From NCBI RefSeq assembly GCF_010119205.1, contig NZ_WRXM01000001.1, positions 1,302,001 through 1,366,000 on the forward strand: 64,000 bases of DNA. Reading direction: 5' to 3'. Numbering within the stretch: the stretch's first letter is position 1; each line of letters starts with the position of its first letter. The DNA is from Haloarcula limicola. Its GTDB lineage: Archaea > Halobacteriota > Halobacteria > Halobacteriales > Haloarculaceae. Shown one piece after another: positions 15,717-19,030 of the stretch. The notes under the pieces were generated by a model. That model worked only from the letters and a program-made list of their open reading frames with translations. It was not told the DNA's origin and did not search any database. Position numbers and translations under genes: made by a program.

Positions 15717-15767
15717 ACTGAATAGCTGCCGCTGGCTCACTCCGTTCGCAGGCGGCAGCAATGTAAG

Positions 15768-15841
15768 TCCGCCCTCCCCGATTTGAACGGGGGACAAGTC
15801 GATCTACAGTCGACTGCTCTACCAGTCTGAGCTAAGGGCGG
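15768..15841 (-). tRNA. tRNA-Tyr (anticodon GTA)
   Basis: 74 nt on the minus strand without CCA. The acceptor stem CCGCCCT pairs with AGGGCGG and the discriminator is A. The D-arm has AGCTCAGACTGGTAGAGC. The anticodon stem GTCGA/TCGAC encloses the loop CTGTAGA, so the anticodon is GTA. The T-arm is CCCCCGTTCAAATCGGGGA. No intron is seen. A TATA-like TTAAG lies about 30 bases upstream, near 15868-15875. Confidence 0.93.
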
Positions 15842-16022: not shown

Positions 16023-16247
16023 GTGACAGTGCTCGGGGACTGCATCTACTGTTCGGACCGCCTCACCAGCGAGCTGCGATCGGTGACGTGCGACCACTGC
16101 GGTGCCGGATTCCACGTCGCGTGCGCTCGCGATGCGGGAGAGCTGTCCGTCGAAGAGACGTCACACTTCCTGCGGTCGAACGCGTATCAAGTCGAGTGTC
16201 CCGACTGCGGCGACCGCTGGGACGCCGGGTTCGACCCGCGAGAGTGA
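16023..16247 (+). CDS. RING/PHD-like zinc-finger small protein
   Basis: 74 residues from a GTG start; an in-frame TAA at 15999-16001 limits the start to 16023 or the GTG at 16029. Cysteine/histidine pairs are CIYC, CDHC, H and C in FHVACA, and CPDC. This gives a C4-HC-C2 spacing like RING/PHD or C1 zinc fingers, with an intervening helix (SVEETSHFLRSNAY). It lies 77 bases before cdrL in the same direction. It may be a nucleic-acid or protein-binding adaptor; function unknown. Confidence 0.65.
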   Translation: MTVLGDCIYCSDRLTSELRSVTCDHCGAGFHVACARDAGELSVEETSHFLRSNAYQVECPDCGDRWDAGFDPRE

Positions 16248-16286
16248 ACGCGTCTCGCCGGCCGTGCGTCTGACCCAGCGGGAAGA

Positions 16287-16316
16287 TTTTAATACCCGGG
16301 TGACGACCTGTCTTAC
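16287..16316 (+). promoter_or_regulatory. cdrL promoter: TATA box and GTCTTAC half-site
   Basis: A TATA element TTTTAATA at 16287-16294 lies 30 bases before the cdrL ATG (16324), the spacing for a leaderless haloarchaeal transcript. A GTCTTAC motif at 16310-16316 sits between the TATA box and the start. The same motif forms the palindrome in the cdrS promoter, so a shared regulator is likely. Confidence 0.6.
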
Positions 16317-16323
16317 GAGTTGG

Positions 16324-16980
16324 ATGAGCAAGATCACGTTCCGCGCTGACGACGACCTCATCGAACGCCTCGAAGCGTTCGACGCCTCGAAGAGCGAGGT
16401 CATGCGCGAGGCCCTCCGAGCGTACCTCGACGGGAGCGGCGACGACCCGTCGCCCGCCCGCTCTGACTCCGCCGAGTCGACGGGGGCCGAATCGGTGACC
16501 GACACCGAGAGCATCGACGAACTCATCGCGGAGCGCGTCGACGCCATCATCACCGACCGGTTGTCCGAGCGAGCGGAGCGACCGCCCGCGCGGCAGCCAC
16601 AGGACGTCAACGTAAACATCTCACTCGACGCCGAACGTGGCGCTGTGGCGACCGAAGGGGCGGCCGAGTCACACGCGTCTGACACCGCCGCTGCCGACAC
16701 TGCTGAGGACGTATCACACGGCTCCGAGGGCCGTAAGACACCGGCCAAACGCCGTGAAAACGCGGAGCCGAGCGAACAGAGCTCCTGTGCGCAATGCGGC
16801 GAAAACCTCTCCGCAGACCACGTTTACTGTCCGAATTGCGGCGAGAAGGCGTCCCGGCGCGTCTTCTGTGACTGCGGTGACGAGATCCGGTCCGACTGGG
16901 GATTCTGTCCCAGCTGCGGTCGTCGGACGCCGGCGGCGGACGTACTCGACCAATCCCGAAGTGGCGCAAACGAGCGGTAG
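16324..16980 (+). CDS. cdrL: CdrL-like ribbon-helix-helix regulator with C-terminal zinc ribbons
   Basis: 218 residues. The N-terminus (about 1-42, MSKITFRADDDLIERLEAFD...SKSEVMREALRAYL) is a CopG/Arc-type RHH DNA-binding domain. A long acidic low-complexity linker follows. The C-terminus has two zinc ribbons: CAQC with CPNC, and CDC with CPSC (about residues 155-200). The gene lies immediately upstream of cdrS-ftsZ2 in the same direction, the arrangement described for CdrL in Halobacterium and Haloferax. It probably regulates the division operon and itself. The true start is set by the RHH beta-strand and the TATA spacing; an upstream in-frame extension is non-coding. Confidence 0.85.
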   Translation: MSKITFRADDDLIERLEAFDASKSEVMREALRAYLDGSGDDPSPARSDSAESTGAESVTDTESIDELIAERVDAIITDRLSERAERPPARQPQDVNVNISLDAERGAVATEGAAESHASDTAAADTAEDVSHGSEGRKTPAKRRENAEPSEQSSCAQCGENLSADHVYCPNCGEKASRRVFCDCGDEIRSDWGFCPSCGRRTPAADVLDQSRSGANER

Positions 16981-17028
16981 CGTGTTTCTTCTGACGTAAA
17001 CGCGCGTTTGTCATACACTCGGCGATAG

Positions 17029-17079
17029 TTTTAATATCCCCCAGTTTGTGGTACATCTTGCGTAAGACGGTCGTCTTAC
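17029..17079 (+). promoter_or_regulatory. cdrS-ftsZ2 promoter with GTAAGAC-N4-GTCTTAC palindrome
   Basis: TATA element TTTTAATA at 17029-17036 predicts a start site near 17060. Directly there is a perfect inverted repeat GTAAGAC (17062-17068), GGTC, GTCTTAC (17073-17079). A further GTCTTAC lies at 17170-17176, 20 bases before the cdrS ATG. Placement over the start site suggests repression. The implied leader is about 135 bases, unusually long for a haloarchaeon. Confidence 0.65.
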
Positions 17080-17195
17080 ACGGTGTGCGCAACGGTGGCA
17101 TCCCGCCATCGGCTGTCGATTTCACGGTGTAAACAACCGGACGGGTCGAAATCTCGACTCGCCCGGGCCGTCTTACCCAAAGGGGACCAACAACA

Positions 17196-17378
17196 ATGGA
17201 GCGTGTGACACTACGGATTCCGAAGCAGCAGATCGAAGAGGTCGAACAGATGGTCGAGACGGGGGAGTACCCCAACCGGAGCGAGGCGATCCGGTCGGCC
17301 GTCCGTGAGATGCTCGCAGAACAGGACGGTTCCGAGCGCGCCTCGGAGAAGCAAAAGCGGACGTGGGCGAGGGCCTAA
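17196..17378 (+). CDS. cdrS: CdrS ribbon-helix-helix cell-division regulator
   Basis: 60 residues. [20 protein letters not shown] is the RHH strand and first helix, and [17 protein letters not shown] is the second helix-turn-helix segment; almost the whole protein is one RHH domain that would dimerise. CdrS is known from haloarchaea as a regulator of ftsZ2 and cell division. It lies two bases before the ftsZ2 ATG, so the two are co-transcribed. The promoter palindrome is a natural binding-site candidate. Confidence 0.92.
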
Positions 17379-17380
17379 CG

Positions 17381-18610
17381 ATGCAGGACATCGTCAACGA
17401 GGCCCTCGAGCGCGACGAGCAGGAACAGCAGAAGATGTCCGAGGACGACGTCGACGGGTTCGGCGACCCGCGGATCGTCATCGTCGGCTGTGGCGGTGCC
17501 GGGAACAACACCGTCAATCGGCTCTACAACATCGGCGTCGAGGGTGCCGACACCGTCGCCATCAACACGGACAAACAGCACCTCAAGATGATCGAAGCCG
17601 ACACGAAGATTCTGGTCGGCAAGTCCCTCACCAACGGACTCGGTGCCGGCGGCGACCCCTCGATGGGCGAGCGCGCCACCGAGATGGCACAGGGGACTAT
17701 CAAGGAAGTGCTGGGCGACGCGGACCTCGTGTTCGTCACGGCCGGCATGGGCGGCGGGACCGGGACCGGTGCCGCTCCCGTCGTCTCGAAGATCGCCAAG
17801 GAGCAGGGCGCGATCGTCGTCGGCATGGTCTCGACGCCGTTCAACGTCGAGCGCGCCCGCACGGTGAAGGCCGAAGAGGGCCTAGAGAAGCTCCGCAACG
17901 AGGCGGACTCCATCATCGTGCTGGACAACAACCGCCTGCTCGACTACGTCCCGAACCTGCCCATCGGCAAGGCGTTCTCGGTGATGGACCAGATAATCGC
18001 CGAGACGGTCAAGGGCATCTCCGAGACCATCACCCAGCCGAGCCTCATCAACCTCGACTACGCCGACATGACCTCCATCATGAATCAGGGCGGCGTCGCG
18101 GTGATGCTCGTCGGTGAGACCCAGGACAAGAACAAGACCCAGGAGGTCGTCAAGGACGCGATGAACCACCCGCTGCTGGACGTGGACTACCGCGGTGCCA
18201 GTGGCGGCCTGGTCCACATCACCGGCGGCCCGGACCTCACGCTGAAGGAGGCCGAGGGCATCGCCCAGAACATCACCGAGCGCCTCGAGGCCTCGGCGAA
18301 CGTCATCTGGGGAGCCCGCATCCAGGAGGAGTACAAGGGCAAGGTCCGCGTCATGGCCATCATGACCGGCGTCCAGTCCGCGCAGGTGCTCGGCCCGACC
18401 ACGCAGAAGCAGGCCAACAAGTCCCGCGAGGCGATCCAGGAGGTCGGCGACGACACCTCCTTCGACGCCTCCGAGAACTTCGAAACCAGCGCCAGCGACG
18501 GCGGCACCGCCAACCACGCCGGCAGCCCCAGCGGCTACGGTGAGACCGACGGCGGCCGCGACCAGCGCGAGAAGAACAACGGCCTCGACGTCATCCGGAC
18601 GAACGAGTAA
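17381..18610 (+). CDS. ftsZ2: Tubulin-family cell-division protein FtsZ2
   Basis: 409 residues. The GTPase core includes [15 protein letters not shown], the signature [14 protein letters not shown], and the catalytic T7-loop region NLDYAD. An N-terminal extension of about 35 charged residues ([17 protein letters not shown]) and a Gly/Asp-rich C-terminal tail ending VIRTNE surround it. Coupling to cdrS identifies it as FtsZ2, the paralogue that constricts the division ring after FtsZ1 organises it. The ATG at 17381 is two bases after the cdrS stop. A start six codons upstream overlaps cdrS and is less likely. A T-rich stretch after the stop (about 18621-18645) may end transcription. Confidence 0.95.
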
Positions 18611-18691: not shown

Positions 18692-18970
18692 CTAGGTGTC
18701 AGTCGTCTCAGCGATTCGTTCGACGATCGACCAGTGTTCTCGGGCCGTCTCCGTCGTGAAGTAGACGGCCCCGTAGTCGGAGTCGCTGTGTTCGACCAGC
18801 CCGTGCTTCGAGAGCACGTCGAGGTGGTGTTCGACCGTCTTGTAGTTGAGCGAGAGGTCGTCGGCGAGCCGGTGGCGGTTCCGCGGTCGCTCATCGAGGG
18901 CGCGAAGGATCCGGACCCGGTTGGGCCCGCCCTCGGTGCCGGCGAGGACCTGCCAGAGCACGGTCTCCAT
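18692..18970 (-). CDS. Winged-helix (ArsR-like) transcription regulator
   Basis: 92 residues from METVLWQVLAGTEGG. The winged helix is seen in NRVRILRALDERPRN, RLADDLSLNYKTVEHHLDVLSKHGLVE and a wing with YGAVYFTT. METVLW...GGPNR is the typical start of a haloarchaeal family of small ArsR-type regulators. A GTG three codons upstream could also serve. It converges on ftsZ2. The ligand and targets are unknown. Confidence 0.82.
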   Translation of the reverse strand: METVLWQVLAGTEGGPNRVRILRALDERPRNRHRLADDLSLNYKTVEHHLDVLSKHGLVEHSDSDYGAVYFTTETAREHWSIVERIAETTDT

Positions 18971-19030
18971 CGGCGACACGGACGCGTTGGGACGCCCTTA
19001 GTATACGCCGCGTATCAGCGGTAAGCCGAC

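Follow-up and report, generated by a model that had tools for sequence, protein, structure and literature searches.

The 64,000-nt stretch of Haloarcula limicola DNA analyzed here (the window) carries, on its forward strand, cdrL (16324–16980), cdrS (17196–17378) and ftsZ2 (17381–18610). CdrL comprises 218 residues, with an RHH_1 domain, a CdrL_M domain and a double zinc ribbon, and CdrS is an RHH_1 protein of 60 residues; their RHH identity is clear from Pfam, and profile comparison gave NikR as the nearest solved chain to CdrS. Genes and gene order are those of the regulated locus of the CdrSL system (Darnell 2020, PMC7439475; Liao 2021, PMC8406309), for which binding of CdrL at the cdrS-ftsZ2 promoter (PMC7439475) and of CdrS upstream of ftsZ1 (PMC8406309) has been published. 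The promoter elements were assigned from sequence: the cdrL TATA box (TTTTAATA, 16287–16294), whose context is conserved, the cdrS-ftsZ2 TATA box (17029–17037), and GGGGA (17182–17186), the likely ribosome-binding site of cdrS. Upstream of cdrL lies a tRNA-Tyr gene on the reverse strand (15767–15841), and a tRNA detected with Rfam is similarly placed at the related loci L012, L013, L034, L071, L075 and L077. Between this tRNA and cdrL, a small forward ORF of 74 residues (16023–16247) gave weak RING/zinc-ribbon matches below the Pfam cut-offs, while a convergent gene after ftsZ2 (18692–18979, reverse strand) encodes an ArsR/HVO_A0261-type winged-helix protein. Loci L162 and L163, from the small-genome families f11 and f5, have directly upstream of cdrL a gene for an additional RHH-like protein of shorter length (MGRINVRVD...).

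The original prediction reported four copies of GTCTTAC or its complement GTAAGAC in the two promoters, and all four are present. One, at 16310–16316, falls at the predicted start of cdrL, between the TATA box and the ATG (16324). Two form a dyad in the cdrS-ftsZ2 promoter, with GTAAGAC as the left half (element A, 17062–17068), GTCTTAC as the right half (element B, 17073–17079) and GGTC as the spacer. The last is a proximal half-site, GTCTTAC (element D, 17170–17176), which ends 19 nt short of the cdrS ATG (17196) and 5 nt short of the GGGG in the ribosome-binding site. A fifth exact copy, GTAAGAC, is located in the coding region of cdrL (16733–16739). Counts of the 7-mer by itself are uninformative, its five occurrences in the window not exceeding chance (4.35 expected). 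The perfect dyad GTAAGAC-N4-GTCTTAC occurs once in the 3.9-Mb genome. Across the class, 374 of the 391 Halobacteria genomes contain the pattern GTAAGACN{3,6}GTCTTAC, nearly always as a single copy, compared with just a handful of genomes for the reversed-pattern control; of 242 genomes from the same phylum but outside the class, two have it. Seventeen Halobacteria genomes had no exact dyad. Fourteen of them carry a variant (six with a 2-nt spacer, six with GTATGAC or GTCATAC as the right arm, two with one other change) and in three no CdrS was found, so that dyad and CdrS co-occur.

Aligning the upstream regions of 133 distinct loci, the check that the original prediction had proposed, revealed that the cdrS elements are conserved: A is exact in 131 loci, B in 125 and D in 127, the spacer is N4 in 105, and the dyad begins 32–33 nt after the start of the TATA box in 114. 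Over the FtsZ2 tree, we counted two substitutions in A, five in B and six in D, against 7–41 at each position of the stem extension beside them. A distal half-site (17010–17016, in the window the variant GTCATAC) lies upstream of the TATA box; it is exactly GTCTTAC or GTAAGAC in 83 of the 133 loci and within one mismatch of it in 118. These short, conserved half-sites, in inverted or tandem array at a fixed spacing within a promoter, have the form of an RHH operator. Measured from the TATA box, transcription is predicted to start at about 17057–17060, which places the dyad at about +3 to +20; it thus adjoins the start site and lies just inside the transcript, not over the start as originally described. 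Near-invariant, single-copy and held at a fixed distance from the TATA box, in a promoter with a published CdrL-FLAG ChIP peak in Hbt. salinarum, the dyad almost certainly serves as a specific site of regulation. Our literature search for GTCTTAC in archaea returned no relevant earlier report.

Long structured leaders are unusual in haloarchaea, whose transcripts are largely leaderless. The predicted cdrS-ftsZ2 mRNA leader (17059–17195) folds with a z-score of −4.35 into a three-way junction composed of a closing stem A:D (17062–17071 with 17167–17176, so that A is extended by 17069–17071), a hairpin B:C (17073–17085 with 17123–17134) and a hairpin H2 between C and D (17137–17166). The 3′ strand of B:C is element C (CACGGTGTAAAC, 17123–17134), which is GTAAGAC in many relatives and degenerate in the genus of the window; B with its following bases is complementary to C with its preceding bases, at a fixed spacing. 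Over the 133 loci, the mean folding z-score was −4.26, and A:D was present in 118 of the minimum free energy (MFE) folds. For the Haloarculaceae group and for the Halorubrum group, RNAalifold independently proposed A:D together with B:C. The covariation score, obtained by named-structure counting, was 0.167, compared with 0.083 for shuffled alignments (0 of 500) and 0.04–0.09 for slid ones. On the FtsZ2 tree, positions 2–5 of the B:C extension underwent 3, 6, 7 and 4 concerted changes that kept pairing, against 0–3 in non-partner columns. The B:C pairing is therefore well supported; support for A:D, whose closing-stem sequences hardly vary, comes from folding and from a few concerted changes beside it.

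A covariance model built from the Haloferacaceae group detected held-out leaders of other families, most of which scored higher with structure than without. The leader of the window scored 41.6 bits with structure and 42.7 bits without, probably owing to its degenerate C. Against Rfam, this leader gave no meaningful match, only two chance-level hits far below the gathering scores; it has the stable fold and covarying pairs of a structured cis-regulatory RNA, outside the Rfam families. The full RNA is not universal, since C is degenerate in the genus of the window and C and/or D are missing in lineages L100, L157, L158, L162 and L163.

We consider the best reading, and a reasonably probable one, to be that a DNA operator for RHH regulators is embedded in this structured leader; the data show the conservation and placement of the sites, their retention without cdrL and, by covariation, the RNA pairing, while protein binding, the direction of control and the function of the RNA are what we infer. 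Four observations argue that A and B are recognized as DNA. B is still GTCTTAC in 33 of the 41 loci with a degenerate C, and lineages that have no D (L158, L162, L163) still carry the A-B dyad. Furthermore, the B variants GTATGAC and GTCATAC break the pairing and keep GTNNNAC, and the distal half-site is not transcribed from this promoter. Covariation in the extension argues for RNA pairing, and the two lines of evidence together favor a dual-use element.

Were every half-site simply an RHH binding site, with the RNA pairing a by-product of their inverted arrangement, the near-invariance of A, B and D, the retention of B opposite a degenerate C, the untranscribed distal site and the CdrL ChIP peak at this promoter (PMC7439475) would all be accounted for. 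A DNA-binding site has no need, however, of B-C covariation outside the 7-mers on the FtsZ2 tree, nor of hairpin interiors that contain no 7-mers and yet, in both hairpins, are more stable than the coding control, and we regard this simpler account as rather unlikely. A more elaborate version, in which the four elements form a bistable leader RNA (A:D with B:C versus A:B with C:D) whose strands simultaneously serve as RHH operator, appears improbable; both states are possible on paper, and MFE folding favors A:D with B:C. If it held, transcription and translation of an archaeal division operon would be tied to one sequence element. An A:B hairpin as the main RNA state was rejected, being present in 13 of 133 MFE folds and having arm variants without compensatory rescue.

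A related but distinct sequence marks the cdrL and ftsZ1 promoters. Of 145 genomes, 113 contain the pair GTCWGAC-N4-GTCWGAC and none matches the reversed control, and the genome of the window has 12 sites within one mismatch against one control site. One of the 12 lies upstream of ftsZ1 (L124), a promoter at which the pair immediately precedes BRE/TATA in most of 30 genera. Of 113 cdrL promoters, 86 have it immediately before the TATA box (at most three mismatches; 0.9 expected), six of these copies being perfect. The copy in the window (16257–16274, forward strand) is degenerate, with only the right half intact (GTCTGAC, 16268–16274). The pair shares with the cdrS dyad a 7-bp unit, the N4 spacing and a GAC-N4-GTC core, and a position upstream of the TATA box is the published one for CdrS at ftsZ1 (PMC8406309). 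The pair is a candidate CdrS site, an equation based on ftsZ1, the published CdrS target, and on position. The own-genome sites (L002, L124–L134) constitute a predicted CdrS regulon. Besides ftsZ1, the neighboring frames, named by eye, include CarB-, UMP-kinase-, glutamate-dehydrogenase- and ParA-like proteins and two similar membrane proteins (L002, L132).

As to which protein reads the dyad, the sole reproducible ChIP peak of CdrL-FLAG in Hbt. salinarum lies upstream of cdrS-ftsZ2 (PMC7439475), a report whose text gives no operator sequence or motif. In our survey, CdrL was detected in 376 of 391 Halobacteria genomes. A profile search to an E-value of 0.01 found, apart from partial matches of a kind that CdrL-bearing genomes also give, no CdrL in G001, G002, G007, G026, G093, G136, G138, G183, G261, G282 and G312, nor in a twelfth genome, the 87% complete assembly G353; cdrL is also absent from the cdrS locus of the cdrL-less genomes. 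All of them keep CdrS and the dyad, and A, B and D are exact in all 11 distinct cdrL-less loci, with about six losses of cdrL on the FtsZ2 tree. The site is therefore not lost along with cdrL, and selection on the dyad does not require CdrL. With at least 11 genomes retaining an exact dyad and an exact proximal half-site in the absence of cdrL, we reject CdrL as the sole reader of the dyad; the strongest candidate, and by inference its natural reader, is CdrS. The outer half-sites are suggestive of CdrL specificity: a third site occurs at 1 of 11 cdrL-less loci versus 74 of 122 cdrL-bearing loci, and an exact distal site at 2 of 11 versus 81 of 122, but the comparison is confounded by phylogeny and we make no such claim.

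That neither protein reads the dyad, a third regulator doing so instead, would fit its retention without CdrL as well as the CdrS ChIP-seq data from Hfx. volcanii, in which the 18 sites (ftsZ1, at −50, and 17 others) do not include the cdrS promoter (PMC8406309); competition from CdrL could explain that missing peak. Set against a third regulator are the CdrL peak at this very promoter (PMC7439475), the half-site length, N4 spacing and GAC-N4-GTC core that the dyad has in common with the pair at ftsZ1, a CdrS target, and the lack of the dyad in the three genomes where no CdrS was found, and we judge it decidedly improbable. The same in vivo binding of CdrL weighs against the opposite extreme, a purely regulatory leader whose strands are the repeats and whose A-B palindrome has no role as DNA. 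Covariation and folding, the position of the dyad inside the predicted transcript, and the published finding in Hbt. salinarum that the ribosome occupancy of cdrS and ftsZ2 does not match their mRNA levels (PMC8303175) would suit such an element, but it leaves unexplained why the dyad outlives D, why the half-site recurs upstream of the TATA box and why arm variants lose pairing but retain GTNNNAC, and we hold it very unlikely. Equally hard to credit is the circuit originally proposed, in which CdrS and CdrL autoregulate both cdrL and cdrS-ftsZ2 through a shared GTCTTAC operator: the window does carry GTCTTAC at both promoters, but the 7-mer or its complement is exact near the cdrL start in only 5 of 113 promoters, the conserved cdrL element being the GTCWGAC pair, and cdrL-less genomes retain the cdrS dyad.

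Autoregulation through GTCTTAC thus retains a specific site at cdrS-ftsZ2 and loses the shared operator at cdrL, and GTCTTAC was rejected as a conserved cdrL operator. Haloarculaceae often keep the relative GTATGAC, or GTAAGAC, at the same place in the cdrL promoter, so that weak CdrL autoregulation within this family is possible.

In the dual-use reading, the DNA side would consist of GTAAGAC-N4-GTCTTAC and the distal half-site acting as an RHH operator. Known RHH proteins suggest by analogy that each 7-bp GTNNNAC unit would take one dimer, giving two adjacent dimers at an 11-bp spacing. Their binding beside the start site would prevent initiation or stop elongation at an early stage. CdrL would be one reader of the dyad, as published ChIP indicates, and dispensable for keeping the site, for which reason CdrS is likely the ancestral reader, acting in autoregulation. 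On the RNA side, the same 7-mers would be reused in the leader, with A:D next to the ribosome-binding site and B:C completing a three-way junction with a probable role in adjusting how well the division mRNA is translated or how stable it is. Since the cdrL and ftsZ1 promoters carry the GTCWGAC pair upstream of the TATA box, we propose a revised circuit in which CdrS would activate ftsZ1 and cdrL, and CdrL, with CdrS, would control cdrS-ftsZ2.

The DNA side resembles the operators of Arc, MetJ, CopG and NikR, with short near-palindromic half-sites bound by dimers in tandem or inverted array. The Arc operator has the one-turn (11 bp) center spacing seen between the dyad units of the window, and the NikR half-site GTATGA resembles the natural arm variant GTATGAC. 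Unlike the operators of these repressors, that of the window sits in a structured, covarying leader, and no metal or ligand domain is known in CdrS. With autogenous leader RNAs and attenuators, the locus shares a structured 5′ leader in which four segments complementary to one another lie beside the ribosome-binding site; it differs from them in having no meaningful Rfam match and no known ligand. In the two CdrSL reports (PMC7439475, PMC8406309), we found no mention of a dyad conserved across the class or of its retention in the absence of CdrL, nor of the CdrS site predicted at cdrL or the leader RNA.

The timing of cell division in archaea is poorly understood, and our analysis specifies which bases to mutate in work on CdrL and CdrS. 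It predicts an arm of the circuit running from CdrS to cdrL, with CdrL dispensable for retention of the operator. It also suggests that the ftsZ2 mRNA has a structured leader across the class, which could account for the published discrepancy between the abundance of this mRNA and its occupancy by ribosomes (PMC8303175).
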